A DNA stretch of 64,000 nt from Basidiobolus meristosporus CBS 931.73 (taxonomy: Eukaryota > Basidiobolomycota > Basidiobolomycetes > Basidiobolales > Basidiobolaceae), in assembly GCA_002104905.1 (NCBI GenBank), contig MCFE01000413.1, positions 1-64,000 of the forward strand, read 5' to 3'. A program made the position numbers and the translations under genes. This document shows positions 4,291-34,600 of the stretch, piece after piece. Numbering within the stretch: position 1 is the first letter of the stretch; each line of letters starts with the position of its first letter. The notes below the pieces were generated by a model that saw only the letters and a list, made by a program, of their open reading frames with translations, did no database searches and was not told the origin of the DNA.

Positions 4291-4295
4291 TGTAT

Positions 4296-5473: not shown

Positions 5474-5518
5474 TGCCTTAGAGTTCAAAACTGAATATTT
5501 GACCTTAAATTACATATA

Positions 5519-5871: not shown

Positions 5872-5923
5872 TATAGATGGCACCTGGATGAAGAATTAAG
5901 AAAATCAAGCACCAACCCAAAGG

Positions 5924-10332: not shown

Positions 10333-10691
10333 AGCAACGGATTTGGATACTTATACAGCAGTATATTGGCATCAACCTGGTCTTATATGAAATATATATG
10401 AAAACTAATGTGATTGTTGAATTTTCCATATATTATGCATGATGCATCTCAGATTGCATTGACATGGATCAGATCACATCAATTGCAGATTTCCTATTTG
10501 ATTATAGACCTATGATTAAAGCATCAATAAAAGTACCAAGGCATTGTTTGCAGATGACTTTTGCAACATAATGATGGGATACATGGCAATTGATGGAGAT
10601 TTAACCATAATGTATTAAAAATCAGATAAATAACACAGATTGCGCCAAATCAATTCAAACAGCCTCCATAAAATCATCCATCAATTTTAAT
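10333..10691. promoter_or_regulatory. Divergent spacer between Harbinger A genes
   Basis: An AT-rich, non-coding 359-bp spacer separates the divergent ORF2 and transposase starts. The equivalent in copy B is about 43,616-43,920. It probably carries promoters for both genes; no single box is convincing. Confidence 0.4.
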
Positions 10692-11575
10692 ATGACTTAC
10701 TCATCTGAATGGTCTTTTCTCATCAATCCCATCACTACCACTGGATTTCCTTTTGACACACTGGAGGAGATCTATTCCAAGTACTGTGGACCATCAACCC
10801 CAATCTACTCAAGGAGATCCCTTGTTAAGCTTCTCTGCTATTACAAGGACTATTGCCCTACAAGGTTTCATCCCACCATCCATGGCAACAAAAGTCCTAG
10901 AAGCTTTCACTCCCAGCTGACAGCAATGGAGAACTACCTTGCAGAGGGTATGAATGACTTAGAGCAAGCTTGAATACTAGGTTCAGAAGCTCCAAAAGAC
11001 TTCCATATCCCAGAGTGTTCAGCAACAGGTTCCATACCAGGAGTATTATGGATACCTTCCCAGTGAGGATTAACAGACCTTCTAGAGGGCAGAGGCACTT
11101 TTATTCTGGCAAGTACAAGGCACACTGCGTGAAGTTTCAAGCACTGTCTGATGTTGAGGGTAACATCATCTGGTTTAGTGGGCCATTTGCTGGAAGTAGG
11201 CATGACAAAGCACTCTGGGTAGGGAATCATCATGAATTCAGTAGAGGGGAGAGATGTATGGCAGACATAGCCTATATTGGAGAGGATTGTCAGAGATTAG
11301 GATGTATTACAGCTTATAGGAAGCCAAGAAATGGTATGCTCAGCAGGAAGCAGAAGCTCTACGATGAGATATTTAATCATTTCAGAGTGAGGGTAGAGCA
11401 CACATTTGGATATCTGAAGAGATTCAGCATATTGGCAGGTAGATGCAGTGGAAAGTCATATTTAGGAGAAAACAGCAGAATAGGTAAAGTAGTTAAGATA
11501 CTTATTGATGCACAGTATGCTCATACAAGAAGACATCCACTGAGAGAAATGTGTCTGGAGCATTATAAAGAGTAA
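10692..11575 (+). pseudogene. Harbinger transposase (DDE_4-type), one frameshift
   Basis: Two adjoining frames (10,692-10,973 and 10,970-11,575) encode a DDE_4-type nuclease. The visible acidic residues are: D in MDTFPVRINRPS, the RHD of GPFAGSRHDKALW, AD of CMADIAYIGED and E of RVRVEHTFGYLKRF, so the putative catalytic set appears kept. Copy B reads through the junction (LEQAWNTRF) where copy A has lost one G at about 10,971 (GCTTGAATA versus GCTTGGAATA). The break is therefore a single-base deletion and this copy cannot make the full enzyme without frameshifting. The protein would cut and paste the element, creating 3-bp duplications. Total length is about 295 residues, short for the family. 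Confidence 0.85.
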
Positions 11576-13245: not shown

Positions 13246-15602
13246 CAATGTTCCCATCAAAAGGCCATCACAAAGTAAAGTCCTGTGACTAAGAGGCATT
13301 GATTCTGTCAGGACACAGTCCAGAGACCTTTGAAAAATAATTGCACCCCACATTTTATAAAAAACTTGGTCAAAAAATTTTATCACAACAATGTATAAGT
13401 GGCTTGTGATTAGTACCCTGCCAATTTGCTCACTTTCTGATCCAGGACACTCTGTCACCTCCTATATTTGTGTGTATTGATTGGCTAGTGCCTCTTTTCA
13501 TACTACTTACTTCCTGACTCAACTGTTTCTCTTACATCTCATTCATACAAATTGATTTATTTCTATTGCAACTTCAGTTGTACCTCAATTGCCAATTATA
13601 TTAACCTATCCAAGTCCCTCTACTCTACACTTACATTAAGTCCACCCTACACTCAATAAGCATTTCTGCTATAATGCTCTGGTTCCACAACTTTGGCAGG
13701 AACCCAATGGCTTTATGCCACTGTTCATTCACTGATTCCCACATGTTCTGGTCTTCTGCTAGCACTGCAAGGTCTAGCACCTCATCTGCCAGTCTTTGCA
13801 ATAAATCCTTGCAATATTCCAGTGTGTTTTCTTGAGCACAGCTCTTGAAGAAGTGCTGCAACCTCTTGGTATGCCTATTAGTGTTCCAAAATTCCACTGA
13901 AGGAATTATGATAGTCTTTTGAGGTCTTGATGTTGTAGCCTTGTTACAAGTCTTGGTATAAGAGTAATAGAGGAATAAGGAGTTTAGCTAGTATTGTATT
14001 CACTAAAACTTGAACTGATTTTTATTGAGGTTCCAACTGCTACTTATATATATTTTGCCAGATCATTTGCTGACTAATTGTATTTCCTAATGTAGGGTGT
14101 GGCAAATGACTCATTTGACTGTATCATCATCACCCAATTAGATCCTACTTAATATAACTATTTCTGTTTGATAAGGATCTGCTAATTCATCTGCTGATCA
14201 ATACTACAGATCTGATAGATTACATTGATGTACTGGTAGGCTAAACATAAAACTAATTGATTTAACTAAAAACTGATCTAACTTAAACATTCAATCAGTA
14301 GATCATAACAGCCTTGTCTGTCAGTGGGATCTGCACTCTCTCAACAATGGAGGATGTGGAAGCTGTGGCAGACAAATTGCCTTTATCAGCAAACTCATCT
14401 ACCTTGCTGGAGTGTAACTCAGCTGGCTACGCTTCAAGCTCTTGTCAAAACAGCTGCTTTCTTGTTGGTAATTCTTCTTGGCTATGGTGGGATTCAGTCT
14501 GTTCTGGGCTTGTGCTTTTAATTGGCAAGAACTGCAGTTTTTTTGGCATGCCTCCCTGTCTCAGGCTTGGGTAGACATTTTTCCCTTTACTGTTTCCTCT
14601 ATCACTGCCAGGTCTTTCACTGCTACTTTGTCTGAGTGCTTCTTGTAAAGAACTACATTCTCTACTTGATAAATTCTGCTCTGACGCATCTGTTTTGCCT
14701 GCTTGTCCCTTGCTGGTACGCTTCTGGCAACCTGTTGTTTCATTTCCATTTGTTTCAAGCTCTCAACTGTAGCTGTGATGGGCTCCTGTAAATGACACTG
14801 GTATCATCACTGCCAGGTCCTTCACAGCTACATTGACTGAGTGCTTCTTGAGTAGTACTATGCTTCTTACTTGATTAATGTAGTGCCAGAGCATCTGTGT
14901 CCACCTGATTGTCCCTAATTGGCACTCTGCCAGCTACCTGACATCTCTTTGACACTTGTCTGGAGCTTTTAGCCCTGCTTGTAATGGGCTCATGAGAAAG
15001 CTGCTGGTTTTTAGCCATGGCACCCTTGTTCCTCTGCCTTTGATAGTTTCTACTACTCATAAGATACTTTCTTAGCATACTAATGCTGGCCAGAAATCTG
15101 TTTGCCTGTTTGGATCCAGGATAATACTCATGGAACAAGTCAAGTGCATTCTGCTTGGCCTTGAGTTCCTGATGGTCCCATGGTATGCCAGCCTTAAGGT
15201 GATGGTGTGTTAGACTTCTGACAACCTCTTGAATATTGGATCACTGTTCATTATTGCACTCAATGGCTTCACAGATCTTCAATGTTTTTTGACTTTTATG
15301 CCTTGGTATAAACACCACATTGTCTCCCTCCCATACTGTGATTGGTTTTTCTGTGGGCTTTATCTTTGGACACTTTTGTTGTGCTACAAAGACTGTACAA
15401 TGTTCCTCTGCAGTTATACCAGGAAATTGCTCAATTATTGGCTGTGACAATGAGCTACCTGAGTTCCTTCTTTACAGCAAAGATAATGCTTTCTCTACCT
15501 GGCATATAGATTGCTCTACATGTATTTCCCACTCATTCTGTTTCTGGACTATTTCCTGATTTCATTAGGTCATTGTTTCTATCAAATTAGCCACGGCACC
15601 TA
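13246..15602 (-). pseudogene. Element X protein, copy with solo gypsy LTR inside
   Basis: Unknown protein of a multi-copy element. On the minus strand the readable blocks are a region with WEGDNVVFIPRHK (15,320-15,450), LFHEYYPGSKQANRF (about 15,120), a Lys/Gln/Ser-rich middle (14,560-15,000), and a C-terminal block HTKRLQHFFKS...LQRLADEVLDL (13,631-13,897, still open for 88 codons). A solo LTR at 13,942-14,310 interrupts the last third. Homologues lie at 1,688, 29,829, 37,320, 41,771 and 46,537. I do not recognise a family. In the 46.5-50.3 kb copy it is divergent from the TNP2 gene, so it may be the second protein of the CACTA-like element. Confidence 0.6.
13942..14310 (-). repeat. Solo LTR of the gypsy family, TSD GCCT
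   Basis: This 369-bp LTR (TGTTACAAG... to ...CATAACA) matches in reverse the gypsy 5' LTR at 31,225-31,594. GCCT flanks both sides. The paralogous X copy at about 46,712-46,722 has the empty site (GTAGTCTTGCCTG), which confirms insertion into X. Confidence 0.9.
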
Positions 15603-15786
15603 GACCTGAAGTAAAGCAAAAACTGGCACCACTTATGTCAAAGAAATAATGGAAACTTTATCAAAGGATGACTTCACTATCTAGACCACTCTGCCTTTGG
15701 CTTGTGTCATGCCACTATTACATTTCAGAGGATGGTCAATAATGTGTTAGAAATATGCAATGGCAATGCTCTCTTGTGTATGAGGA
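15603..15786. other. Short unassigned stretch before the polymerase fossil
   Basis: X homology ends at about 15,602. No gene is seen here. It may hold the decayed 5' end of the polymerase-like gene. Confidence 0.3.
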
Positions 15787-16645
15787 TTAAATGACATTAT
15801 CCCTAACCACTCATATCCATCAGGTTATCATGCACCCCTCTCTCTTCCATGCCTGTACCAACATCCTACAGAATATTTTGACAAATATGGTGTCAATGCT
15901 AACATCTCCCACTCCCACACTTATGTCTTGCAAAGATTCAAATCTAAGCTCAAGGAAAAATTTGGTCATGACATAAAACTTAACCCCCTAAAATTCACCC
16001 CCATGATGCAATTGCTCAACGTATAACTTGGAAAGGACATCACATGCACCACAACAGCCAACTTGTCTGCAAACTCCCCCTTATTAACCACAGAGGATAC
16101 TACTTCATTGATGGCATTGAACATGTACCTTTAATTCAAAAATTATGCAACATTGTTGTCCCTTACATCTCCGCTGCTGATAATGCTGTCTCCTGCAAAA
16201 ACAGCTTCAGGGGCTCCCTTCTCCCATTATGTGCTTGCATTGAAAATTCCATTGACCTTTATCTAGACATCTCCTCTACCCATAAGGATCTTTATGGTTT
16301 TAAGTGCTTGTCAATCTATTGGATCCTGAATAATCTTGATTTTGACTTCAATAAAATTTACAAAATACTTGCCCTCCTTGTTGCCAACCATTTTCATGTA
16401 AATACTTTCTCCACCATCTTCATGGCCTCCATGATCAACTCTGAAAACATCATCTCCCCCAAAGATCTACACATTGTAGAATCCAAATATTTCCCCATGC
16501 AAGCTAAATATAGCATTGTCAATACCCTTGGCCTGTTATCTTAACTTGCCCTTATGACCTCTATGGATCTTCTCCAACCCATGGATTGTGATGATTATGG
16601 AAACAAACTTGGCAAATCTTCCAACATCCTTTGAGACCAAATCTT
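15787..16645 (+). pseudogene. RNA polymerase beta/RPB2-like gene, 5' part
   Basis: N-terminal half of a second-largest RNA polymerase subunit, decayed by frameshifts. Visible blocks in order: a charged helix region (15,860-15,990), a segment FTPHDAIAQRITW (about 15,994, like the LTPxEARxRNxTY region of the family), then a 166-codon frame from 16,044 containing RGYYFIDGIEHV (matching the GYFIxNGxEKV signature) and further lobe-like sequence, and DCDDYGNKLGKSSNIL (16,584-16,632, matching the DDxDxxGNKR signature). At 16,645 it is cut by copia element 2b, and the gene resumes at 25,643. The family is the catalytic beta subunit of multisubunit RNA polymerases. The composition is rich in I, N, F, Y and K. 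Host, viral or plasmid origin cannot be settled by reading. Confidence 0.75.
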
Positions 16646-16785
16646 TGTCAAAATATTGGACTATTTGGTATCATTCTGTAGCTGAAAATTTACTTAACAA
16701 TTCTGGATTAGTCTTGGTCACTGTGAGACTAATTTACAGCTCTAACTTTGCCACTCTCTTCAGATCTATGAACTTATGATTATTC
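16646..16785 (+). repeat. 5' LTR of copia 2b, left piece
   Basis: Begins TGTCAAAATATTGGAC (ancestral TGTTGAAATATTGG). The LTR continues at 21,472 after the inserted element 2a. Confidence 0.88.
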
Positions 16786-17155
16786 TGTTGCAATTTAAGA
16801 AGTGATTTGGATATATAAGAACTTATCAAGAAATAGTGATAATAGTTGAACTGTTGTTTATTCATAAAAAAGCTCAGTATTTATACCTTTGTAGAAGTTA
16901 TAGAGCTGCAACACTAAGTAGGGAGGGTTTCTCAATATTCAGGAGCATTCTGTAACAGTTTCAGGGTTAGTACATAATGTTTGGTAATAGTGCTAATTTG
17001 ATCCTGACTATAGGGGAATAATAATAAGATCATATATCTGGAGAAAGTGGCAAAGTTAAGGCAGTAAATGAGTCCTAAAGTGACTAAGACTAGCCTAGAA
17101 TTGTTAAGTAAATTTTTAGCTGCTGAATGATACCAAATAGTCCAATATTTCAACA
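16786..17155 (-). repeat. 3' LTR of copia 2a
   Basis: 370 bp, TGTTGCAATT... to ...ATATTTCAACA on the plus strand, nearly identical to the 5' LTR at 21,103-21,471. Confidence 0.93.
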
Positions 17156-20100
17156 CTCCCCCTCAACTAAATAATTTCTTAATCCCATTTTCTCTCTAAG
17201 AATCTCAAACTGTGGCCTAGCTAGTGGTTTTGTCAATATGTCTGCCACCATTTTGTCAGTTGGGCAGTAAACCAGCTCTACTAAGTTATTTTCTACAGCT
17301 TCCCTCACAAAGTGATGCTGTATATGAATGTGCTTAGTTCTGGCATGATTAGTAGGATTTCTAGCTAATGAAATACAACTTTGATTATCCTTGTAAATAC
17401 ATGTTGATTCACCTGAATTAAAACCTAAATCTTTGAATAATTTTCGTAGCCATAAAGCCTCCTTAGTTGCTTGACATGCAGCCATATATTTGGCATCAGT
17501 TGTAGATAGTGCCACAGTTGGTTGTTTCTTGCAATTCCAAGTAATAGCTGCACCAGCATAAAGAAATACATAGCCTGTGGTAGAGCGTCTGTCAATCAGA
17601 TCCCTACCCCAATCTGAATCACTATGACCATCAAATTTTTGCCTATTAGCTGCTCCAGAGTATTCCAGTACCATATTTATGGTACCTTGTAGATATCTGA
17701 AAATCCGCTTAACTGCTGCAATTAGATCTGATCCATAATTCTGCATGAATTGACTGACTATTCCAACTGCTACTGCAATATCTGGACATGTAGACACCAT
17801 CAAGTATATTAGGCTACCAACCATTGATTGATAGGGAAAGTTTGGTCCATATTTGAGCCGTTTTCATCTATAACTGGCTGAGATTTGCTTAATTTCAGGG
17901 TATTGTCCTTAGGGGTTGCTGCAGGCTTGCAATTTTCCATTTTGAAGCATCTAACAATGTCCCTGATGTACTTAGACTGATTCAGCACAATTTTCTGCGT
18001 AGGTATGTCAAATTTGACCTCAATTCCAAGAAAATAGCTCAATTTTCCAAGATCTTTCATCTCAAACTTGCTGAAGAGATCTGATTTCGTCTGTTTAAGT
18101 GCCTCTTGATCACTTGTAGCTATACTTAGGTTGTCCACATAAAGAACTAGGATGATCGCACCCTTTTTGAGCTGTTTCACATATATACTGTGATCTGCAG
18201 TGCTGTGAGAGACCCCAATTTCCTCTAGATATGTGTCAATATTGTTATACCATGCTCTGGGTGCCTGCTTAAGCCCATACAATGATTTTCTAAGTTTGTA
18301 CCCCTTATGGGGGTCTTTTGGATTGGTAAAGCCATCTGGTTGCTCCATATATATAGTTTCTTGCAAATCCCCATTTAGAAAGGCTGTTTTAACGTCCATT
18401 TGGTGTAGATCTAGACTGTGTACAGCTGCCAGGGCTAGAACTGTCATAATAGAGTTAAATTTGGCAACCGGAGCAAATGTTTCCTTAAAGTCTAGTCCCT
18501 GGATCTGGAAATAGCCTTTAGCTACTAATCTAGCCTTTTACTTATCAACGGCACCATTTGAGGTTATCTTGATCTTGTAGACCCATCTACATCCTATTGG
18601 CTTTCTCCCATTTGGTAAATCTACCAGTTCCCACGTTTTTGCCTTGATCAGTGATTGGTACTCCTCCTGCATGGCTTGTTGCCTCTTAGTAGCATCTGGA
18701 CCTTGCATTGCCTGTTCCAAATTCTGAGGTTTGGCACATAAGGCAAGATAAGCCTCTTCATGATCATTAGATGTCTGCCACCAGGATCCAGGGGCATTTC
18801 TTATTCTGGTAGATCTCCTAACTGGGATAATCTGTTCTGATCTGGAACTGGTAGAAGTATCTTCCATCTCAGGCTGGATTTGGTACGTATCTTCTTCATT
18901 TGTGTTGATTGCATCATCAGGCAGCTGGCCAATGATTTCTGTGGCTTTCTGATCTGAATTCTCCTCAAATACAACGTCCCTGCTCTTGATCAGCTTCTGA
19001 ATTTTGCCATCATACACTCTATACCCTTTAGTATCTTCACAATACCCAAGAAAGATCCCTTTTCTACTCTTTGGTTCCAACTTTGAGTGTTTTTTGTCAG
19101 GGATGTGATAAAAAACATCACTGCCAAAGATCCTGAGGTGCCGGAGATCTGGCTTTTTGCCTGTATATGCTTCAAAGGGTGTAGAATCATGTAGTGCTGT
19201 TGTTGGGCATCTGTTCATGATGTATACAGCAGTAGCAACAGATTCAGCCCAAAACTTGTAGTCCATTCCCTTATCATGTAGCATAGATCTTCCCATCTCT
19301 ACAATTGTCCTATTTGCACGTTCTGCTACTCCATTTTGCTGTGGAGTATAAGAACTGTGGTCTACTGAAGTATACCAGTAGACAAGCAGTACTTTGCAAA
19401 TTCCTTTGAGAAGTATTCTCCTCCATTGTCACTTTGTAGTACCTTCAATTTACACCCAGTTTGTGTTTCTGCCATGTTCTTGAAGTGCTTGAACATCTCT
19501 AAAGCTTCATCCTTTGTTTTGAGGAAGTACACCCATGTATATCTTGTCTTGTCATCAATAAACGTCATAAAGTATCTCTTGGCTCCAAAGGACAGTATTC
19601 TCATGGGGCCACATATGTCTGAGTGTAAAATAGCCAATATTTCGGTGGTATTGATGCCTTCTGAGCTCTTGAAACGTTGCCTAGCTTGTTTGCCATATGA
19701 ACATCCCTTACAAACATTCAATTTGATCAGAATTGAGTATTTTAGGCCCAAAACAAGCTAATTTTTCACCAATTGGCTCATTTTCTGTTCCCCTATGTGT
19801 CCTAGCCTCCTATGCCACGTCTCCCAGTTAGTTTCATCAGTTTCAGCAATGTAGACATACTCAAGCACAATGATCTTGCATTGTAACTTGTATATATTGT
19901 GATCTCTGATTCCCAAAGCTAATTTTTGTCCATTTTCACTCAATATTGAGCAGCTCAGCTTAGTAAAAGCAAATTTCAGTCCATGAGTAGTTGCTTTACT
20001 GACTGAGAGTAGGTTCTTAGCTATTCCAGGTACATAGAGTACGTCAGTCAGTTTTGCTGTTGTTGCCCCTGAGTTATCACTCATATTTAGTTGTATAGAC

Positions 20101-21066
20101 CCACTGGCGGGAGCTTCCAATGCAGAGCTATCTCCCAGATAAACCTTTCTTACAGGAATAGTCTTTAAGTTGCTGAACCAATCCTTTATACCACAAATAT
20201 ACTGTGATGCTCCAGAGTCAATATACCAATCATTACTTCGGTTACTTGCACTCTCTTGTACAGTGACAAATAGCTGTTCATCAGTAGTTATATGGTTTGC
20301 CTGCTCTAGTTTCTATTTTTTGTCTGCTTGTTTCTTCTTGCATTCTCTTGCCCAGTGTCCTGGCTTCTTACAGTAGTTACAGCAGCCAGGTTTTCTTTGG
20401 TTTTGTTGCTTTCCCTTCTTTTCTGTATGCCTTTCTGAACTGAATAAAGTATTATCTTCAATTTTCTCTGCTTGATCATTACGTCTGAGTTCTTCATGGA
20501 GGAGCCTTCCTTTGACATAGTCTAAAGTCAGGTTGTCTTCTCTGCTTTCAAAAGAAAGTATGAGTGGCTCATACTTGTCTGGTAGGCTGCAAAGCAGACA
20601 GAGTATCTTTTCTTCATCATCTACACTACCATTAATACTGTAAAGTTCTTCTGCAAGTGTCTCCATTCTGGTAATGAGTTGTAGAATGTCATCATCTGGC
20701 TTTTTTCTCATGTTGAAGAACTTTTGTTTCAAATAAAGCTTGCTTGACACTGACTTTGCTCTAAAGATCTTCTCTAAGGATTCCCATGCTGCTTTGGCAG
20801 TATTTGAGGCATGGATTTGTCCAATGAAGGAGTCTTGCACATTGATGCATATTGCATTGAAGGCCTTTCTCTCCTTCTCTTGAAACTTCTCCACATCTTC
20901 TGCTGTTCCTTTGGGCTCAACTTTCTTTCCTGTTACTATGTTCCAAAGCTTTCTTTCCTCAAGGTGGATCTGCATCTTGAATTCTCCAAAGTCTGTAGTT
21001 CTTCCCATCAAACCTCTCCTTTACAGGGAAGATGTTGGTATTGCTTTGTTTGCTGGTAGAAGTCAT
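17150..21066 (-). pseudogene. Copia 2a gag-pol, nearly full length, few breaks
   Basis: The start codon is at 21,066. In order: gag (UBN2-like; YRLWRI, then HLEERKLWNIV), zinc knuckle CNYCKKPGHWAREC (20,330-20,375), protease DSGASQYICG, GAG-pre-integrase (WETWHRRLGHIGEQK), integrase (FIDDKTRYTWVYF; QSDNGGEYFSKEF; YTPQQNGVAERANR), linker (KGIFLGYCEDTKGY), RT (SLYGLKQAPRAWY, YVDN where YVDD is expected) and RNase H (ADILTKPLARPQFE). Pol stops with TGA at 17,150, just inside the 3' LTR. Breaks: a 1-nt insertion near 20,979, CAG-to-TAG stops in gag (about 20,313) and near 19,760, a frameshift near 19,365, a TAA near 18,538 and a frameshift near 17,820. RT Asp-to-Asn at YVDN would itself disable it. 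Confidence 0.92.
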
Positions 21067-21090
21067 CTTTCGAATAGATTAAGGCAATTG

Positions 21091-21102
21091 GGGCTCATAA
21101 CC
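21091..21102 (-). promoter_or_regulatory. Primer binding site of copia 2a (half-tRNA type)
   Basis: GGTTATGAGCCC lies directly after the 5' LTR on the minus strand. It is complementary to GGGCTCATAACC, the anticodon stem-loop of initiator tRNA-Met, the half-tRNA priming mode known for Drosophila copia and yeast Ty5. Similar sites follow the LTRs at 21,706, 51,406 (reverse) and 52,428. Confidence 0.8.
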
Positions 21103-21471
21103 TGTTGCAATTCAAGAAGTGATTTGGATATAAAGAACTTATCAAGAAATAGTGATAATAGTTAAACTGTGGTTTATTCATAAAGAAGCTCAGTATTTAT
21201 TCCTTTGTAGAAGTTATAGAGCTGCAACACTAAGTAGGGAGGGTTTCTCAATATTCAGGAGCATTCTGTAACAGTTTCAGGGTTAGTACGTAATGTTTGG
21301 TAATAGTGCTAATTTGATCCTGACTATAGGGGAATAATCATAAGATCATGTATCTGGAGAAAGTGGCAAAGTTAAGGCAGTAAATGAGTCCTAAAGTGAC
21401 TAAGACTAGCCTAGAATTGCTAAGTAAATTTTTAGCTGCTGAATGATACCAAATAGTCCAATATTTCAACA
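21103..21471 (-). repeat. 5' LTR of copia 2a
   Basis: 369 bp, TGTTGCAATTCAAG... to ...ATATTTCAACA on the plus strand. On the minus strand it contains an AATAAATACTGAG-type TATA region and a later AATAAA. Confidence 0.93.
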
Positions 21472-21705
21472 TATTCCCCTATAGTCAGGATCAAATTTGC
21501 ACTATTACCAAACATTATGTACTAACCCTGAAACTGTTACAAAATGCTCCTGAATATTGAGAAACCCTTCTTACTTAGTGTTACAGCTGTATTACTACTA
21601 CAAAGGTATAAATACTGTGCTTCTTTACTAATAAACTACAGCTCAACTACTATCACTATTTCTTGATAAGTTCCTTATATCCAAATCACTACTTAGATTG
21701 CAGTA
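21472..21705 (+). repeat. 5' LTR of copia 2b, right piece
   Basis: Continues from 16,785 after the TATTC duplication and ends at the decayed TTGCAGTA, followed by the primer site GGTTATGCGCCCC. Confidence 0.88.
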
Positions 21706-21741
21706 GGTTATGCGCCCCAAATGCCTTAATCTATTCTAAAG

Positions 21742-24700
21742 ATGACTTCTACCAGTAAACAGAACAACACAAACATCTTCCCTGTAAAGGAGAGGTCTGA
21801 TGGAAAGAACTACAGACTTTGGAGAATTAAGATGCAGATCCACCTTGAGGAAAGGAAGCTTTGGAATATAGTAACAGGAAAAGAAGTTAAGCCCAAAGGA
21901 AAAGCAGAAGAAGTGGAGAAGTTTCAAGAGGAGAGAAAGGCCTTTAATGCCATATGTATCAATGTGCAAGATTTCTACATTGGTCAAATCCATGCTTCAA
22001 ATACTGCCAAAGCAGCATGGGAATCCTTAGTGAAGATCTTTAGAGCAAAGTCAGTATCAAGCAAGCTTTATTTAAAACAAAAGTTCTTCAACATGAGGAA
22101 GAAGCCAGATGATGACATGCTGCTACTTGTTACCAAAATGGAGACACTTGCAGAAGAACTTTACAGTTTTAATGCTGGTGTAGGTGATAAAGAAAAGATA
22201 CTCTGTCTGCTTTGCAGCCTACCAGAAATTGAATGCAGAGAAGACAATTTCACTTTAGACTATGTCAAAGGAAGACTTCTCCATGAAAAACTCCGACATA
22301 ATGATCAAGCAGAAAAAACTGAAGATAATGCTTTATTTGGTTCAGTGTGGCACACAGAAAAGAAGGGAAAGCAACAAAACCAAAGAAGCCTGGTTGCTGC
22401 AACTATTGTAAAAGGCCAGGACACTGGGCAAGAGAATGCAAGAAGAAACAAGCAGGCAAAAAACAGAAACTAGAGCAGGCACACCATATAACTGCCGATG
22501 AACAGCCACTTGTAATTGTACAAGAGAGTGCAAGTAACCAAAGTAATGAATGATATATTGACTCTGGTGCATCACAGCATATTTGTGGTATAAAGGAGTG
22601 GTTCAGCAACTTAAGCACTATTCCTTTAAGAAAGGTTTCTCTGGGATATAACTCTGCTCTGGAAGCTACCACAAGTGGGTCTATACAACTAAATATGAGC
22701 AATAGCTCAGGGGCAACAACAGCAAGACTCACTGACGTACTCTATGTGCCTAGAATAGCTAAGAACCTACTCTCAGTCAGTAAAGCAACTGCTCAGGGAC
22801 TAAAATTTGTTTTTACTAGGAAGAGCTGCTCAATAGTGAGTGAGAATGGACAAAAACTAGCTTTGGGAATCAAAGATCATAATATATACAGGTTACAATG
22901 CAAGATCATTGTACCTGGGTATGTCAAAACTGCTGAAACTGATGAAACCAACTGGGAGACGTGGCATAGGAGGCTAGGAAAAATTGGGGAACAGAAAATG
23001 AGCAAATTAGTGAAAAATCAGCTTGTTTTGGGCCTATAGTACTCAATTCTAATCAAATTGAATGTTTGTAAGGGATGTTCGTATGGAAAACAAGTTAGGC
23101 AACATTTAAAAAGCTCAGAAGGCTGCAATACCACCAAAATATTGGCAATGGTACACTTAGAGATACTTTATGACGTTTATTGATGACAAGACAAGATATA
23201 CATGGGTGTACTTCCTCAAAACAAAGGATGAAGCTTTAGAGATGTTCAAGCACTTCAAGAACACGGCAGAAACACAAACTGGGTGTAAATTGAAGGTACT
23301 ACAAAGTGACAATGGGGGAGAATACTGCTCAGAGGAGTTTGCAAAAAACTGCTTGTCTACTGGTATACTTCAGTCAACCACAGTTCTTATACTCCACAGC
23401 AAAATGGATTAGCAGAACATTCAAATAGAACAATAGTAGAGATGGAAAGATATATGCTACATGATAAGGGAATGGACTACAAGTTTTGGGCTGAATCTGT
23501 TGCTACCTCAGTATGCATTAAGAACACATACCCAGCACTATGTGATTCTACACCCTTTGAAGCATATACAGGCAAAAAACCAGATCTCCAGCACCTCAGG
23601 ATTATCCCAGTTAGGAGATTCACCAGAATAAGAAATGCCCCTGGATCCTGGTGGCAGTCATCTAATGATCATGACAAAGCTTGTTTTGTCTTATGTGCTG
23701 AACCTCAGAATCTGGAACAGGCAACGCAAAGTCCACATGCTACTATGTGGCAACAAGCCATGCAGGAGGAGTACCAATCACTGATCAAGACAAAAATGTG
23801 GGAACTGGTAGATATACCAAATGGGAGAAAGCCAATAGAATGTAGATGGTTCTACAAGATCGAGATAACCTCAAATGGTGCCATTAATAAGTACAAGGCT
23901 AGATTGATGGCTAAAGGCTACTCCCAGCTTCAGGGACTAGATTTTAAGGAAACATTTGCCCCAGTTGCCAAATTTAACTCCATTAGGGCAGTTCTAGCCC
24001 TGTCAGCTGTACACAGTTTAGATCTACACCAAATGGGCATCAGAAGAGCCTTTCTAAATGGGGATTTGCAAGAAACTATATATATGGAGCAACCAGATGG
24101 CTTTACCAATCCAAAAGACCCCCATAAGGGGTACAAACTTAGAAAATTGTTGTATGGGCTTGAGCAGGCACCTAGAGCATGGTATAACAAGATTGACATA
24201 TATCCAGAGGAAACTGGGTACTCTTGTAGCACTGCAGATCACATTATGTACATGAAACAGCTCAAAAAGGGTGTGATCATCATAGTTCTTTACGTGGACA
24301 ACCTAGTTATAGCCACAAGTAACCAAGAGGCACTTAAACATATGGATCAGATCTCTTCAGCAAGTTTAAGATGAAAGATCTTGGAAAATTGAGCTATATT
24401 GTTGGAATTGAGGTCAAATTTGACATCCCTACACAGAATATTGTGCTAAATCAGTCCAACTACACCAGGGATACTAGAAGATGCTTTAAATGGATAATTG
24501 CAGACCTGCAGCTGCCCCTATGTACAATAACCTGAAGTTAAGCAAATCTCAGCCAGTTATAGATGAAAATGGCTCACATATGGACCAGAACTTTTCTAAT
24601 CAATCAATTGTTGGTAGTCTTATGTACTTGACAGTGTCTACATGTCTAGATATTGCAGTGACTGTTGGAATAGACATTCAATTCATGCAGAATTATGGAT

Positions 24701-25300
24701 CAGATCAAATTGTAGTAGTTAAGTGGATTTTTGGATATCTACAAGATACCATAAATATGGTACTGGAATACTCTGGAGCAGCTAATAGGCAAAAATTGAT
24801 GGTTGTAGTGATTCAGATTGGGATAGGGATCTGATTGACTGACGCTCACTACAAGCTATGTATTTCTCTATGCTGGTGCAGCAATTACTTGGAATTGCAA
24901 GAAACAACCAACTGTGGCCCTATCTACAACTGAAGCAGAATATATGGCTGCATGTAAAGCAACTAAGGAGGCTATATGGCTACAAAGATTACTCAAAGAC
25001 TTAGATTTTAATTCACATGAGCCAACATGTATTTACAAGGATAATCAAAGTTGTATTTCATTAGCTAGAAATCCTACTAACCATACCAGCACTAAGCACA
25101 TTGATATACAGCATCACTTTGTGAGGGAAGCTGTAGAAAATATCTTAGTAGAGTTGGTGTGCTGCCCAACTAACAAAATGATGGCAGATATATTGACAAA
25201 GCCACTAGCTAGGACACTATTTGAGAATCTCAGGGAGGAATCAGGATTAAGAAATTATTTAGTTGAGGTGGAGTGTTGCAGTATTGGACTATTTGGTATC
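21742..25300 (+). pseudogene. Copia 2b gag-pol, broken, with internal deletion
   Basis: Gag is open from ATG 21,742 for 243 codons (MTSTSKQNNTNIFPVKERSD). The zinc knuckle CNYCKRPGHWAREC is read in another frame at 22,347. Protease, GAG-pre-integrase (22,695-23,039) and part of integrase (23,170-23,412) follow, then RT (23,442-24,374; YVDN at 24,292-24,303) and RNase H (24,914-25,280; ADILTKPLAR). Relative to 2a, over 300 bp are lost near 23,600 between integrase and RT: LQHLR is joined to IIPVRR, with GAT at both deletion edges. It shares with 2a the frameshift at the integrase ...STGILQ site (about 23,370). It is inactive. Confidence 0.88.
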
Positions 25301-25642
25301 ATTCTGCAGCTAAAAATTTACTTAACAATACTGGATTAGTCTTGGTCACTGTGACACTAATTTGTTGCTCTAACTTTGCCACTTTCTTCAGATTTATGAT
25401 CTTATGATTATTCCCCTATAGTCAGGATCAAATTAGCACTAATACTAACTATTATGTACTAACCCTGAAACTGCTACAAAATGCTCCTGAACTTTGAGAA
25501 ACCCTCCTTACTTAGTGTTACAGCTGTATTACTACTACAAAGGTATAAATACTGAGCTTCTTTACTAATAAACAACAGCTCAACTGCTATCACTATTTCT
25601 TGATAAATTCCTTATATGCAAATCACTTCCTGAATTGCAACA
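25274..25642 (+). repeat. 3' LTR of copia 2b
   Basis: 369 bp, TGTTGCAGTATTGGAC... to ...GAATTGCAACA, followed by the target duplication ATCTT. Confidence 0.93.
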
Positions 25643-27428
25643 ATCTTTTCTTGTGCCATCAAACTCTCTGGCATAAAAAGTTTTCTGCAAACTTTTTTGG
25701 AGGATATACTCTTTACCATGCTAAAGAAGGTCAACAAATTATAAACAACAAAATCAATCCCAAGATAGTTGACTTGGTCTTGTGCAAATCCACCATTGAC
25801 AAGCTCTCCATGGTTTGCAAAATTAATGTCCCCTGTGACAAAAATACTTCTAACATTCACATGCAAGCCATTCACCCCAGCCTGTTGGGTTACATCTGTC
25901 TCTGCAAAACCCCTGAAGGCAAAATTGTTGTTATTATTTAACATCTTTCCCTCACTTGTTTGCTCCCACCATCTCCAATGAAAAATTTTGCAAAGCTCAA
26001 GCTTAACTAAAAAATAATTTATCCTTCAACAATTGTGACGTCAAACATCCTGTTCTCTTAGACAGGTACATCATTGGCTTTTATGGTAGCACCTTGGCAC
26101 ATCTTCAAAAAAAACTTAAACAAATTCATCCCATGAACTTTGTCCTCTATTACAAACCCATCCCCAGAATTATTTACATCAAAACTTCTTCTGACCAACT
26201 TATGAGACCACCTTTTACACTCTCTGGCACACCAATAGATTGAAACAAGTTAAATTCTCTCTCCTGGGATTCTCTTTTAGAACCTGGTAAGATAGAACTT
26301 GTCAATCCTGGTGAACAATCCCAGATCACCCTGGGTGGCATTGGATATCATGGACACCATCATATGTATACTCACATGAAAATTCATCCCTGGGTAATGA
26401 TGGGTATTCCTGCCTCTATGGTCCCCAATGGCAACCACAACCAGTCTGCATGTAATTTCTTTGCTTCTGCCATGATCAAACAAGGTATGCAACTACACTC
26501 CCCTCCTACTATAGCTTCTGGAGATACAAACTTCTTGGAATCTGCCCAGGTGCCATTGGTCAATACATTTGCTTATAATCTATTAAAAATGGATAAACAA
26601 CCCAACAGGGTTAAATTAGTTGTCATGATACAATCTTATACTGGATATAACCAAAATGATGGTGTTATTATTTCCAAACTGCCGTTGACCAAGGTTTGTT
26701 TCAATCTTTTACCCAACATGTCAATGTTTGTGAACTTTTGGGTAACAAATCTGAAATCATTGTAACCAGGGAAATGTTTGATGAAACTAAATATGTAAAT
26801 GGTGTTTCAACAGTTGGTGGCATACTGGAAGATGGTGACTTATAACGTACCATAGTTGATGGAATTACCAAAAAAATTTGGGTTGTCAAATGTCATAAGG
26901 GTAAGGCCACCAAGGTTTCACATCCTAAACACTTGCATATCAAGGTTATTTCAATTTTCATAAATACATTGAAGTTGGTGACAAAGTTGCTTCTAGACAT
27001 GTGCAGAAAGGTGTTGTCACAATTACTCTACCACAGAAAGATTTGCCATATACAGAAGAAGGTATTGTGCCTGATATATTTATTAGTCCACATGCTATTC
27101 CTGGACATATGACAATTGACCAACTTTTGGAAGGTTTTGGTTGGTAAAGATTGTTCTATACATGGATAGACAAAAGATGGAACACCATTTACAGCAGATG
27201 CATACAAATGTATGAAAGATATACAATGGGTCTTGTGAGCACTCTGTTGGAACTAGCTTGAACCCCTCCTCAAGATGTTCCATTCCACTTATACAGTGCT
27301 GTTATTCCTGAGCCACAAAATCTTAACACACAGGATATACCCATCCACTCAGTGTGTTTAAGACAGTTCTATTTGAGGCATTGCATGTTAATGAATATAG
27401 AGTTAGATGATGACTATGTTTCAATGTA
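25643..27428 (+). pseudogene. RNA polymerase beta/RPB2-like gene, 3' part
   Basis: Continuation of the gene cut at 16,645. Conserved blocks, in order but in shifting frames: HPSLLGYICLCKTPEGK (25,870-25,923), the wall/flap-like region ending LMRPPFTL (26,046-26,222), YTHMKIHPWVMMGIPASMV then NHNQSACNFFASAMIKQG (26,363-26,487), YTGYNQNDGVI (about 26,638-26,670), [14 protein letters not shown] (26,977-27,018) and [16 protein letters not shown] (27,058-27,105). These are the family signatures of multisubunit polymerase beta subunits, in the right order and spacing. Several near-invariant positions differ: RHVQKG for RHGQKG, GYNQND for GYNQED, AMIKQ for AMGKQ. The last open block ends with TAA at 27,426-27,428. 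Total coding content, about 870 residues over both parts, is short for RPB2. Many frameshifts and stops make it a fossil. Confidence 0.85.
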
Positions 27429-27455
27429 AGCCCCTAATTCTCATCAATCTTGATA

Positions 27456-27827
27456 TGTTGCAATTTCAAAAGTGTTTTGGATATAAGGTACTTATCAGCA
27501 AGTAATGCTAATAGTTGAGCTGTTATTAATTCATAAAATTCCTCAGTATTTATATCATTGTAAAAGTAATACATCTGTAACACTAACTTGGAAGAACTTC
27601 TTGATATTCAGAATCTTACTGTAAAAGTCTTAAGGTCAATACATGAAGCATGGTCAAAGTCCTACTTGATAATAACTGTAGGGGAATAATCATAGAACCA
27701 TAGATCTGAGAAAGAGTGCCAAACTTAACAATGTAAACTAGTCCTGTAGTGACTGATACTAGTCTGGAATTGCTAAGTCAATTTATAGCTGCTGCACAAC
27801 ACCACATGATCAGCATATTACTTCAAA
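27456..27827 (-). repeat. Diverged solo LTR related to copia family 2
   Basis: About 370 bp, TGTTGCAATTTCAAAAG... to ...ACTTCAAAC, aligned throughout with the reversed copia-2 LTR but much more diverged than those at 16.8-25.6 kb. No internal region is attached. Confidence 0.75.
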
Positions 27828-29828
27828 CTTTGCTATAGTACCCCAGCTTTCTTCTTAGTACTGGCAAATTTCTGCATCTTTCAATGTAGAATTTGCACAA
27901 AAGGTGTCAGTTTACTCCTATAATAGAGACATGAACTCAGCAATGTGAAGAATTGTATTGGCCAAGTAATGAAAAGTATTTTGGAAGATTCAGGAGGTGT
28001 TCAGCCTGGCATTTACTTGTAAGATACTAATTTTATCTGAGAAACAAGGTATGTTGCAACTTTGAAAGTATCACACCTAATAGTATAAAGTCAAGGTGAT
28101 GGGGCTGTGCTACTTGCAGTGGGTATACTCATATGTAAATGTTGGTAAGCAGGAAGCCATCACTTATTTCCATTCTGGCTCCAAATGAAATGCCCATGGT
28201 AGTAATGTGTAAGCAATTAAAGAGGTGTGACTCTCTTGAAAACTCCATGGTGGTGTTAGAAATGATTAGGAGGAGAAATGAGATGATAAGCTAGGCAAAT
28301 ATTAGGGTGGAATCAACAGCTTCCCAACACTCTTACATATCAAAGTATCCACATTGGCTTCAAATATGCAACAATACCAATGTAACCACTGGAAGAACTG
28401 GGTAAGTAGTTCTCAAGTTACACACTGCAAAAGTATTAACACTGGGTCAATGAAGGTATTTGGATTTATGTGCTCTGATTATAAGAATATTTATCCAGAA
28501 GCAGCTTACCAATGCCAAATTAAAACATCTACAGCTTTGATGCAGGGAATTTGAGTAAGGAAATGAGCAGCTACATCCAAACTTAAGGCTGAATATGGAG
28601 ATCCCTGCCACTACTGAATGCACTCTGTACTTTATCTTGCTTGATGTGTGGAAAATATTGAACCATGCTTTACCTTTAGGGAGTTTCTATGGATCAGATC
28701 TATGGGTAGCTGGGTAGCCAGTTGGGGCTGCAAGAACTGCAATATCTCAATCTCATCAAAAATATTAGTTTCAGGTCCATTAGGATGTGCTGGGTTTGCA
28801 CATGGAAGACAGCCTGGAAGAATCAGAAAACTCTGAGCACAACAATATAAATCAGAGGACCCATGACTTTGGTATCAAGAAGCTAACCAGTGTGAGTATG
28901 CATGTAAATAGCAGAGTATTGTTAGCTTGAGTGAAATGCTGCAGGCAACTATTTCCATTAGGACTACTGTACTTAGTGTGTCTGATCTTCCTGAGTAAAA
29001 GCCCATTCTGTTGCTTGTTGATATAGAATAGGCACAACAAGGCCCAGAGCTTGCTTATAAGTGGGGAGAGGGTCCAAAAGGGTGAAAGGATATGTTGGCA
29101 TAGTACTGAAAAGTATTTTGCAAATACTGATGAGGTATTTATGGCAAGAGTAGTGATATTTATGCATGTGTTTGCAAGAAGTACGTGCTTTCAGCAATAG
29201 AAGGTTTTTGACAAATTTGCAAGAAGCACACTGAAGAGCCGCAAAGTAGGGGAATTGGTAGTAAAATATAATAATGGTGCAAAGGGAGGTGAAAAATATA
29301 GTACAATTTGGTGAGCTGGCATTAAAGTATTTTAGGCTACTCTCTGTAGGCTGCTGTACTGCCAAGACAATGCCATCAGAGGTACACTTTCAGGTCAGCG
29401 GAGCACCAATAGGTCTTTTCATCTATAATGCATTTGCAATCATTGGCTAATTGGGTAGACTTAAATAAATGCAGAAGGTATTAAGAGCATCAGAATGCCA
29501 TTGAAGTCCCCCTAAGGGATAATTAAGACACTATCATGTTTTACAGTAAAAATATCAAACACTATCACAATCCTCCCATATAATTGTGAAGAGGAACCAC
29601 AGTTCTAAGTTGTTGGCAAAATGATAGTCTGATAGCTGCATACTGATGACCTATCTGAGGTAAATGGATTGGCAAGCCCAGATGATTATTTATAGGTACT
29701 TGCATGAGCACCTGCTGACTTGATGCCCATTTATGTTGCCACTACATAATTAAGACTCTTCCAGGTTGAGGGCATTAATATGTGAGCATTGCTGCTTCTG
29801 TATTATGCTTCTCTGCCCCTGTGTTGCA
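27828..29828. other. Unassigned 2-kb CpG-poor stretch
   Basis: No domain or convincing reading frame was recognised on either strand; the longest frames are 60-130 codons with no conserved motif. The end of a copia-1-like LTR may be present at about 28,270-28,320. Composition is like that of the transposons. It could hide very old repeat copies or the remainder of whatever element carried the polymerase-like gene. Confidence 0.35.
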
Positions 29829-30640
29829 TTAGCTCTCTCTCTCATCTATTATTACCACTAGCGCATTCACTTGCACCTTGGCAGAATGCTGTTTGTCTTG
29901 TGTAATGTTTTCTCTTGATAAATGCAACACTATAGTATCTGTCTTGACCAACTTGACTCTAAAAAGCACTCCTCTTGCTACCTGTAAAGTCTTTGCTGCT
30001 TGTCTGGTGCTGACAGCCCTTTTTGTGATAGAATCTTGAGGGAGCCACTGGTGTTTAGCTGCAACAACTATACTCTTCTGTCTTTGGCATTTGGTACTAT
30101 TGATGAGGCATATTTTATGCACACCAATACAGGCCTAATACCCATTGCTTGTTTGATTACAGTATAATGATTGAGGAACAGGTCAAGTATATTCAGATTG
30201 GTCTTGAGGTATTGATGGTCCCATGATGTGCAGCATAGAGACAGTGCCATGCCAGACATTGAATAGCCTCTTGAATATTATCCCATTCTTCATCATTGCA
30301 CTCAATGGCTTCACAAATCTTCAATGCCTTTTGACTCTCAGGCTATGATATAAATATTTCTGTTCTTGCTCCTATTCTGTAATTGATCAATATGTAAGCT
30401 TTCTCTTTAGGCACTTTTTTTACTACAAAGACTGTGCAGTGCTCTTGTGCAGTTACATTGCAAAATTACTCAGTTCTTGTCTTTGACATGAGTTTATAGA
30501 TCTCATACTTTGCAGCAAAAAAACTGCATTCTTGACCTGGAATAATAATTGCTCCACACATGTTACATTTTCATGCTGTGTCTGGACTGTTCCATAATCT
30601 CTCTGTGCTATTGCACCGATCTTATTAGCCTTCACACCTA
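29829..30640 (-). pseudogene. Element X remnant
   Basis: The minus strand matches the central part of X (blocks equivalent to 14,850-15,560), including a decayed equivalent of the region upstream of LFHEYYPGSKQ and the Ser/Lys-rich middle (open for 97 codons at 29,829-30,122). It ends against the Harbinger C remnant. Confidence 0.6.
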
Positions 30641-30682
30641 CTTAATTCATTAATGCCTTGTTATATAGCTGATTGTTAAATA

Positions 30683-31224
30683 TATGGCACTATAATCTCT
30701 ACCATAATGCCAGTGGTAGGATATAGTTACTGGTAACTTTATTCAATCTTACTTATGTTGCTCAGAATAGTGCTTTGCTTGCTGTATTTACTTTTCATAA
30801 TGCTCCCAACACATTTCTCTCAGTGGATGTCTTCTTGTATGAGTATACTGTGCATTAATAAGTATCTTGACTCTTTTACCTTTTCTGCTGCTTTCTGCTA
30901 TATATGACTTTCCTCAAAATTTACCAGTCAATATGCTGAATCTCTTCAAATATACAAATGTATGCTCTACCCTCACTCTGAAATGATTAAATATCTCATT
31001 GTAGAGCTTCTGCTTCCTGCAAAGCACACAATTCCTTTGCTTCCTATATGCTGTAATACATCCAAATCTCTGACAATCCTCTCCTATATAAGCTAAGTCT
31101 ACTATACATTTCTCCCCTCTACTGCATTCTAGATGATCTTCTGCCCAGAGTGCTTTGTCATGCCTACTTCCAGCAAATGGCCCACTAAACCAGATAATAT
31201 TACCCTTAATGTCATACAGTGCTG
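30683..31224 (-). pseudogene. Harbinger copy C, transposase C-terminal remnant
   Basis: The minus strand matches copy B from its 3' flank through the block FNHFRVRVEHTF (near 30,980) to GNI-W-SGPFAG (31,165-31,200). The left terminus is missing. At 31,225 a gypsy LTR begins, inside the codons for the QALSD region. The opposite terminus of a Harbinger copy appears at 35,534-35,665, beyond the gypsy element. Confidence 0.75.
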
Positions 31225-31594
31225 TGTTATGTTCTACCGCTTGAATGTTTAAGTTTGATCAGTTTCTTAGTCAAATCAACTAGTTATATGTTTAGCCTAC
31301 CAGTATATCAGTATAATCTATCAAATCAGTAGCATTAGTCAGCAAGTGTATCAGCAGATCCTTATCTGACTGAATTAGATATATTAAGTAGGATCTTATT
31401 GTGTGATGATGATGCAATTAAATGAGTCATCAGCCACAGCCTACATTAGGAGGTACAATTAGTCAGCAATTGATCTGGAAAAATAGATGTAAGGAGCTGT
31501 TGGAACCTCAATAAAAATCAGTTCAAGTTTTAGTGAATACAATACTAGCTTAACTCCCTATTCCTCTACAACTCTTATACCAAGACTTGTAACA
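31225..31594 (+). repeat. 5' LTR of the gypsy element
   Basis: 370 bp, TGTTATGTTCTACC... to ...GACTTGTAACA, matched by the solo LTR at 13,942-14,310. A 3' LTR is not present. Confidence 0.9.
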
Positions 31595-31652
31595 TTAGTA
31601 GCAGCAATAACCAGCAACCTCCCTCCTGAAGAAAGAAGAAACCTTCCTCAAG

Positions 31653-34600
31653 ATGTTTGAAAATCAAGAATGGAAGAATGCTATGCAGCAAATCCTAGCC
31701 CAACAGCAACAGCTACTCCAGATCCTTAGCCAGCAGCAACAAAGAATGACTACCACAGCCCAAAGCCAGCAAAACCCTATCAAGAGTAACTTTAGTGTGA
31801 AGGTCAACCAGTGCCATGGTAGAGTCAATGAAAACCTGGGAACTTGGCTCTTCCAGATTGAAGAAGCTTTCAAGGCTAAGAAAATTGCTCCAGAAAGCAG
31901 GTTACATTATGCAGCCTCTTACCTGGCAGATGCAGCTTTACAATAGTACCACAACAAGATCAGGTCAGTCACCATGAAGGGATGCTTTACAATCTCTACC
32001 TGAGTTGAGTTTGTGTTGGAGATTCAAGAAGCCTTTGAACCCCCACACCAACACACACTACTAAGAAGAAAGTTGAAGACACTCAGACAGAAAGGGATGC
32101 TCCAAGAGTACATCTATGTTTATAGAAGTCTACCTGGACAAATTGAAAGAATGGACTCTCTGGATCAAGTTGAATACTTTATTGATGGGTTGAAAGAAAG
32201 AACTTGTAAGGAAGTGAATTATTGGAGACCTCATACTATAGAAGAAGCCGTCAATATTGCCATTGACTATGACTCAGCTATGTTTGGAGTTGAGAAGCCC
32301 ACAATGACTGATCAGAGAGGCTACAATCACTATGAAAGGAGACAATAAGAAGCAGTGCCAATGGAAATAGATGCTATGCAGAAGAATCCTACCTCAGAAG
32401 AATGTAAGACGAAGAGGCTTTGCTTTAGTTGCCACCAGCAGGGACATATTCCAAAGTACTGCCCTCAGAGAAGAAATGGACACCGGCCATCAAGAGCCTT
32501 TAGCCATATTGAAGCTGTGGAGCATAGTAGCATGGAGGATGAACCTGAAGAAGACTCATCACTCACCTTCCATATGACACAAGAATACCTATCACAGATG
32601 ACCTCAAACTCAGGAAAGCAATTATAGTTGAATGGAGTAATCAATGAAGTACCTGCCAAGATCATGATTGACTCAGGAGCATCACAATAGTACATGTCAG
32701 AGCAATTTGCTTTGAATGCTGGAGTCAACTTGGAACTCACCAAATCAACTTTAGTCTCAATAGCTGATGGGAACTCTCACATAATCAACCATATTACTCA
32801 GCCAGTAAGGATGAAGTTCAATGACTACAAAGAAGACCTACAGGCCTATATATCTGGGAACTGCAAGTTTGATCTTGTACTTGGAAAAAACTGGCAAATT
32901 TTGTAGTAATACGTCAATAAACTGGAGAAACCATGCTACTAAGATCCAGAAGGACAACAAGACCTATGAGCTATTACCAGCCAGACTGGATTTCAACTTG
33001 GTCAATTCCAGTGTGTGTGAAACAAGTGAACTTAGCAAGACACAGTTTTGTACAGCACTTAGAAAAGGTACCCAGATATTCCTCAGGGCAGTACTACAGG
33101 GGGATTCCTCTACTCCAGTACCACAGAAAATTCAGACTTTTTTGAAGGAATATTCAGACGTATTTCCAGATGAAGTTGTAAGCCTACCACCAGTCAGAGA
33201 TGTGGATCATGCCATTGACACAGGAGATAGCCCTCCAATGAGTAAGACACCATACCAAATGAGTCCATTGGAGTTGGAAGAGATGAAGAGAAAAATAGAT
33301 CAGTAATTGGAGCAAGGATATTTCAGACCCACCAAGTCACCTTGGGGAGCACTAGTACTTTTTGTGAAGAAGAAGGATGGAGCACTTAGGATGTGCATTA
33401 ACTACAGAGCCCTTAACTCAGTTACTGTGAAGAATAAGTACCCCATACCTTAGATTGATGAGCTTTTGGACCAACTCAATGGAGCCACTATATTCAGCAA
33501 GAGTGACCTCATGTCAGGATACAACCAGACTAGGTTGAAGCCAGAAGACATCCCTACAACAGCATTCAGGAACAGATATGGATATTATAAGTACTTAGTC
33601 ATGAGTTTTGTCCTCACCAATGCCCCTGTAACATTCATGACCCTGATGCAGACTGTCTTCCAGGAGTACTTGGATCAGTTTGGAACCATCTACTTAGATG
33701 ACATATCAGTATACAGCACAACAGAAGAGGATTGTTAGTACACATTGAAAAGGTCTTGAACAAGCTAAGAGAGAACAAGCTTAATGGCAAGCTGCCCAAG
33801 TGTGAATTCCTCAAGGAACATGTTGAATATCTGGGACACATAGTGACTTGCACAGGAGTAACCTTAGATCCTAAGAAGGTTGAAGTTATCAAGAATCTGA
33901 AGCAGCCCCATAGTATAGCAGAACTCAGATCAATCCTTGGAATGGTCTCCTATTATTGGATATTTGTCAAGTCCTTTGCAAGTATTGCAGCTCCTTTAAC
34001 TGATATCCTCAGGAAAGACAATACCTACCAGTGGGACATAGCTTGTGAGACTGCCTTTCAGACACTCAAGAATGAACTTGCTAAGCTACAAAGCTTAAGA
34101 ATCATAGACTCCAGAAAAGAGTTTACTCTGTGCACCAATACTTCAGACTATGCAATTGGTGAAGTGCTGAGCCAAGAACACAAGGGAAAGGACTACCCAG
34201 TTGCCTTTGAATCCAAGAAACAGAACTCAGCAGAACAAGACTATTCAGTGCATGAGAAGGAGATGCTTGCTATAATACACTGTTTGAAGACATGGAGATG
34301 CAATAAAGAAGGAGTCAAATGCACCGTGAAGACTGAACATGCCTCCCTCAGGTATATATTTACTCGGAAGGTACTCTCTAGATGAATGACAAGCTGAAGT
34401 GAATACATTCAGCAATTTGGGGATTGTCTACTGCACTGGGAAAAACAACATAGTTGCTGATGCCTTATCAAGATTAGAACAAGTTGCACAACTCAACTTG
34501 GTGCATGAATCAGATTGGCCTAGCCTATTACCAAAGTACTTGGAGGACCAAGCCATTCCCAATGAGGTGGATGAAGATATCAAGAAGATAATCTGGGATG

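Follow-up and report, generated by a model that had tools for sequence, protein, structure and literature searches.

A 64,000-nucleotide stretch of the genome of the early-diverging fungus Basidiobolus meristosporus CBS 931.73 (positions 1 to 64,000 of contig MCFE01000413.1, C662 in our numbering; hereafter the window) contains the decayed remains of a gene for RPB2, the beta subunit of multisubunit RNA polymerases, split in two by a long terminal repeat (LTR) retrotransposon. This RPB2 is not of host type; the window copy yields no functional product and is a molecular fossil. We consider it probable that the gene came from a large fungal DNA virus, so far undescribed, that was endowed with its own multisubunit, eukaryote-type RNA polymerase, the most likely source being an undescribed Nucleocytoviricota-like virus or virus-like replicon. 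The suggestion of a first-pass annotation of this DNA, that an endogenised large DNA virus might be involved, is therefore probable as far as the virus is concerned, with membership in Nucleocytoviricota staying a candidate assignment only.

The fossil can be read against a less decayed copy on another contig, C180, which has an 879-amino-acid (aa) open frame at 67102-69738. Ahead of it in this reading frame come a 95-aa stretch and a single stop codon, so that the C180 copy is interrupted too. Two parts of the window correspond to it:

15806..16645, plus strand: 5′ half of the RPB2 fossil (blastn to C180 69954-69113, 88.5% identity over 842 nt)
25643..27253, plus strand: 3′ half of the fossil, interrupted by frameshifts and stops (blastn, tblastn, Pfam Rpb2_3/Rpb2_6)

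Seven beta-subunit signature blocks lie on the plus strand at 16095, 16590, 25888, 26436, 26643, 26977 and 27073; they are the blocks that the first-pass annotation had quoted, and they stand in the right order and in shifting frames. The 5′ half covers C180 residues 1 to ~208 of the 879-aa frame together with its N-terminal extension (tblastn, 77% over 213 aa), and the 3′ half is 88.6% identical to C180 over 1566 nt, ending at 27200 (blastn); searched against the window, the C180 protein gave five tblastn segments of 50-79% identity, the last ending at 27253. The DNA identity between the window and C180 is far above chance expectation, and the two parts are confirmed as halves of one degraded RPB2 gene. 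Their limits, annotated as 15,787-16,645 and 25,643-27,428, needed trimming at the 3′ end. Given where the alignment stops in DNA (27200) and protein (27253), the copy breaks off at C180-equivalent residue ~728-748, so that the C-terminal ~130-150 residues and domain 7 are gone. When the open pieces of the window were scanned singly, without joining, three of six matched a domain and three matched none: RNA_pol_Rpb2_3 in one piece (25549-25938, E 2e-5), followed by Rpb2_6 in two (26244-26762, E 5e-12; 26929-27144, E 3e-25), in the correct order. A domain search of the whole genome independently picks the window at 26412-26681 and 26950-27135. The C180 protein has Rpb2_3, Rpb2_4 (below its cut-off), Rpb2_6 and Rpb2_7, with no RPB1 domain listed; domains 3, 6 and 7 in order in this protein, and 3 and 6 in the window copy, place the gene in the RPB2/beta family.

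A protein search for relatives gave 3520 hits at E<=0.001, of which the best 120 were examined. The top match among these is P0003, the C180 gene; identity drops to 31-47% in the others, which come mostly from metagenomes and sit on contigs of up to 137 kb (P0052, outside the tree described below). Three are Mortierellaceae proteins, from Linnemannia elongata (P0086), Podila clonocystis (P0092) and Mortierella sp. GBA30 (P0094). The short length (~870 residues) that had been judged foreign to host genes is a genuine property of the relatives, 110 of the best 120 being 820-1030 aa long. In a 66-row tree of 25 of the best 120 relatives, C180, the two window pieces as separate rows, host proteins, 12 archaeal rows and 22 rows from IMG/VR, 28 rows (the 25 relatives, C180 and both window pieces) formed a clade with a support of 100 in the Shimodaira-Hasegawa-like approximate likelihood ratio test (SH-aLRT). 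The clade is long-branched and stands apart from host RPA2, RPB2 and RPC2, from the archaeal rows and from the IMG/VR rows, which upholds the earlier view that the gene is no recent copy of a host gene; it recurs at 100 in a 49-row set (17 rows dropped) and in a 27-row set. The longest contig behind any placed row, 124 kb, belongs to the relative P0007.

The deep branches leave some room for a host polymerase subunit gene that was duplicated, evolved fast and degenerated. In approximately unbiased (AU) tests, constraints uniting the clade with host RPB2 (p-AU 0.317 with 49 rows, 0.58 with 27) or host RPC2 (0.069 and 0.592) were not rejected, nor were those uniting it with the asfar-like IMG/VR row L070 (0.789, 27 rows) or with archaea (0.731, 27 rows); in the 27-row set better trees existed than the unconstrained search had reached, and the tests there show only that deep branches are unsettled. 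The 49-row tree unites RPA2 with the clade at a support of 79. A host duplicate is nonetheless strongly disfavoured: host RPB2, RPC2 and RPA2 each score >1000 bits against their solved counterparts, versus at most 329 for the C180-type protein with any solved chain, the relatives at 31-47% identity are mostly metagenomic, and a host-like paralog on contig C683 clusters with the RPB2 of the host at a support of 100. The same grouping led us to reject this C683 gene as a second viral lineage.

The fossil is one of several in the 89.0-Mb assembly (1311 contigs). The C180 protein found 34 matches, host polymerase genes and the C683 paralog included, among which nine contigs bear clear non-host RPB2 remnants (C180, C1, C658, C662 with the window, C539, C476, C504, C514 and C224) and three more bear marginal matches (C431, C341 and C480). 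Relative to C180, a near set has synonymous divergence (dS) of 0.30 (window), 0.28-0.35 (C1) and 0.18 (C658), with a nonsynonymous-to-synonymous ratio (dN/dS) of 0.41-0.60; a far set (C539, C476, C504 and C514) has dS of 1.1-1.3 and dN/dS of 0.10-0.19. These values come from simple counting on codon counts pooled over segments, C224 left out, and the far-set dS is near saturation. A dS above 1.1 with such low dN/dS means that the far set diverged under purifying selection, and hence that at least two lineages were functional and replicating before their copies became fossils and that entry occurred more than once; the alternative that all copies are host duplications of one insertion is rejected for the two sets. 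Genome pieces of at least two diverged lineages would thus have entered Basidiobolus chromosomes on several occasions. As side observations, the C683 paralog (~3500-7000, L013) is a further RPB2 gene or exon set of Pol II type, CpG-normal, whose 539-aa open reading frame (ORF) is the part that grouped with host RPB2, and C842:2385-2624 gives a short Rpb2_6 match (E 1e-5) in CpG-normal DNA.

Further genes accompany the RPB2 remnants. On C180, RPB2 lies head-to-head with a 213-aa ORF (P0002), part of which is also present on C539 and on C514, where one copy of a multi-copy element splits it; C514 runs on into a further ORF without assigned function. No known domain was found in P0002 (best Pfam E 0.057), and its only listed relative, P0123 (86% identical), has nothing in Pfam and a best PHROGs E of 0.28; a one-sequence structure model of P0123 is too poor for use (mean predicted local distance difference test score, pLDDT, 38). 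A low-GC block on C367 (71300-77000, L160 1800-7500; 21-40% GC in 500-bp windows) carries an RPB1 whose domains are spread over two open pieces, an RPB5 that fills a single open frame, and a 305-aa ORF. Each of the two remaining RPB5 loci is broken into three pieces, and the RPB1-305-aa pair recurs on C575. The 305-aa ORF beside RPB1 had no match in Pfam, PHROGs or PDB, and we take it to resemble a primase zinc motif. A 594-bp stretch, 98% identical between C367 and C476 and situated on C476 ~0.9 kb past the end of RPB2, ties RPB1 and RPB5 to this RPB2 clade. Additional RPB1, RPB2 and RPB5 genes, linked by this one overlap, are a trait of Nucleocytoviricota type, and all the pieces may stem from one genome. 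By analogy with the biology of nucleocytoplasmic large DNA viruses, the polymerase of which RPB1, RPB2 and RPB5 are seen would have transcribed viral genes without host Pol II. Tandem repeats and copia-like DNA surround the C367 block, which also has a short ORF that contains cysteines.

The C180-type protein finds its best solved chains among archaeal subunits in a single-protein search and in Pol II in a profile search. Together with the unrejected union of the clade with archaea, this could suggest nuclear DNA transferred from an endoparasite, such as a microsporidian-like eukaryote, or from an archaeon, which we hold to be very improbable. A eukaryotic donor would be expected to leave three RPB2 paralogs, whereas one non-host type was recognised (the short C842 match aside); the archaeal rows make a separate clade of their own in the 66-row tree, and the RPB5-type ORF has ~100 residues ahead of its C-terminal domain, whereas the archaeal counterpart is a short form.

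AT-rich tandem-repeat arrays flank the C180 pair of RPB2 and the 213-aa ORF (L010 5860-9045 and L011 2766-4547), with units of 13-263 bp, including a 119-bp unit present 13 times; no sharing of these repeats was found with the other genome stretches compared. Such arrays would suit a large capsid-less replicon, either a linear plasmid or a virus-like element, that encodes its own RNA polymerase and is comparable in life style to the cytoplasmic killer plasmids of yeast, as would the Mortierellaceae relatives without a virus label and the lack of a capsid match, for which controls were uninformative. We regard this source as unlikely, for the C180 RPB2 stands alone and ends in Rpb2_7, as do most of the best 120 relatives, whereas the large subunit of yeast linear plasmids fuses beta and beta′ parts; likewise, the 124-kb contig of the clade member P0007 is large for yeast-type linear plasmids. 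The yeast cytoplasmic virus-like elements offer a likeness as fungal extrachromosomal elements with their own RNA polymerase (pGKL2 ORF6/ORF7), but they use the K2ORF6/K2ORF7 pair (PMC6831550), unlike the separate RPB1 pieces and the RPB5 in a linked block seen here.

Several observations weigh against a viral origin, which we still prefer. The search of the assembly for viral core genes proposed by the first-pass annotation yielded the extra RPB1 and RPB5, and no match in the genome to capsid (PF04451, PF16903) or VLTF3 (PF04947) models, negatives that are uninformative in that no control matched either. D5_N (PF08706) was also without a match at E 0.01, a threshold at which 3 of 14 controls matched, and with remnants this partial its absence says little. 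The search turned up no virus-labelled relative, and none of the 22 IMG/VR tree rows falls within the clade. Scans of IMG/VR with the clade alignment and with another alignment found 26 and 19 RPB2 loci, respectively, on partly the same contigs; a scan for a clade-type motif there found nothing, and scans with an RPB1 piece, the 305-aa ORF and the relative of the 213-aa ORF confirmed no relative. IMG/VR yielded few eukaryote-type RPB2s, so that missing relatives there are weak evidence. It is a single 594-bp stretch that links RPB1 and RPB5 to RPB2, and the one distant relative of the RPB5 ORF lies on a 28,401-bp contig, a size absent among the 120 listed RPB2 matches. Finally, the deep branches of the tree may accommodate a sister relation of the clade to a host subunit, which the sequences do not reject.

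Other candidates for viral genes were set aside: an RPB1-like gene on C602 is host-like, being CpG-normal with exon-like pieces, and a PolB match on C427 looks like what we take to be a host REV3-type gene. Similar broken DNA polymerase B (PF00136) matches at C757:158822-159515, C127:6124-6808 and C1248:20901-21521, each spanning profile positions 241-355 with two TGA codons, are probably another repeated element. The genome has further PF00136 matches as well, and C1202 and C693 carry mRNA-capping matches.

The remnants form a spectrum of decay. The observed/expected CpG ratio is 0.07 in one fossil half and 0.06 in the other, compared with 1.05 in C180 RPB2 and 0.92 in a host gene of the window, and where C180 has a CpG, the window differs at 50-52% of the C and the G sites, versus 6-9% at other bases; the C180 remnant is a ~8.6-kb island with CpG ratios of 0.9-2.4 amid CpG-depleted repeats. 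A CpG transition is involved in 67 of the 186 residue differences between the window and C180 and in none of 8 stop positions, counts that are approximate in that one compared segment crosses frameshifts. The unusual residues that the first-pass annotation noticed at near-invariant positions are accordingly in part products of decay after insertion, and the idea that all of them are intrinsic to the protein is partly rejected. Inserted DNA thus lost CpG like the adjoining transposons, for which cytosine methylation followed by deamination would be the simplest reading; the genome has five matches to cytosine-methylase-type genes (PF00145). Counting against methylation, a 2026 review describes 5-methylcytosine as near-undetectable across early-diverging fungi, yet present on repeats in Phycomyces (PMC13297926). 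Stops and frameshifts accumulated in the inserted DNA, a retrotransposon split RPB2, and the two were duplicated together.

This split can be followed in the window, and the transposon-rich setting noted earlier takes a definite form, the gap between the two halves being one nested insertion:

16641..16645: left target-site duplication ATCTT, 5 bp, present once and uninterrupted in C180
16646..25642, plus strand: outer LTR retrotransposon within the fossil (LTRs, ATCTT on both sides, ORFs)
16785..21471, minus strand: second element, inserted into the outer element's 5′ LTR; LTRs 97.3% identical
25643..25647: right target-site duplication ATCTT, counterpart of the left copy
27456..27807: solo-LTR-like sequence directly downstream of the fossil, 71-76% identical to the outer and inner LTRs
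15049..33346: stretch colinear with C1 209000-222221, in six blocks of 93-97% identity with short gaps

Both elements are presumably of copia type. The interrupting element has the two LTRs (~92% identical) and the target-site duplication of an LTR retrotransposon; its 5′ LTR is split into two fragments, which share 92.4% and 92.2% identity with the 3′ LTR. With LTR divergence of ~8% versus ~3% in the inner element, the outer insertion is the older. C1, which runs inverted relative to the window (33346-15049) and is colinear to both ends of the C1 stretch compared, has the fossil, the outer copia insertion and the target site without the inner element. It is a segmental duplicate or allele of this part of the window, and the common insertion and target site show that C1 and the window descend by host duplication from one insertion.

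GC content is high (61-64%) in the final 6 kb of the window, whereas nearly all of the remainder is AT-richer, repeat-filled and CpG-depleted. In the GC-rich end lies a 1892-aa open frame (57996-63671, plus strand; GC ~62%, CpG observed/expected 0.92), the start of which we take to resemble the HSP90-like repeat of sacsin-type proteins. The multi-copy element that splits the 213-aa ORF on C514 occurs in the window at 9073-11572 and 42685-43491 and on C514 at 63000-65600, and is presumably DNA-transposon-like; broken retrotransposon frames at 32815-35406 (plus strand) are presumably of gypsy type.

Among known systems are endogenous Nucleocytoviricota regions in fungi, including PolB fossils reportedly described by Gong et al. 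in 2020. The compact (~900 aa) Basidiobolus RPB2 scores 188 bits against entries that we take to be African swine fever virus RPB2, versus ~275-329 against archaeal and Pol II chains. The asfar-like row L070 scores 878 bits against these entries, and it falls outside the clade in the 66-row tree. Separate RPB1 and RPB2 plus RPB5 are a likeness to Asfarviridae, the set being present also in African swine fever virus according to PMC10881513. Rhizophagus irregularis has a 1.5-Mb asfar-like endogenous Nucleocytoviricota region (PMC10640383). As there, viral RNA polymerase subunit genes occur in an early-diverging fungus and no capsid gene was found in either; unlike that region, the Basidiobolus pieces are short, unevenly decayed, transposon-shredded and of at least two lineages. 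Among the titles listed in a search that left most subscription journals outside, none dealt with these elements in Basidiobolus, and the words 'virus' and 'viral' are absent from the main text of the Basidiobolus genome paper (PMC7466969).

More tentatively, and with somewhat more doubt than confidence, the clade may represent an undescribed, deep-branching group of large DNA viruses, of family rank or higher, with a compact RPB2, still circulating in early-diverging fungi (Basidiobolus and Mortierellaceae) and in sampled environments and missed by standard virus collections, whose Basidiobolus insertions are graded from CpG-rich to CpG-stripped. The fossil offers one of the rare hints of DNA viruses in fungi and supplies both a marker protein and genera (Linnemannia, Podila and Mortierella) in which relatives may be sought, and copies in graded decay would make host silencing of viral DNA testable in an early-diverging fungus.

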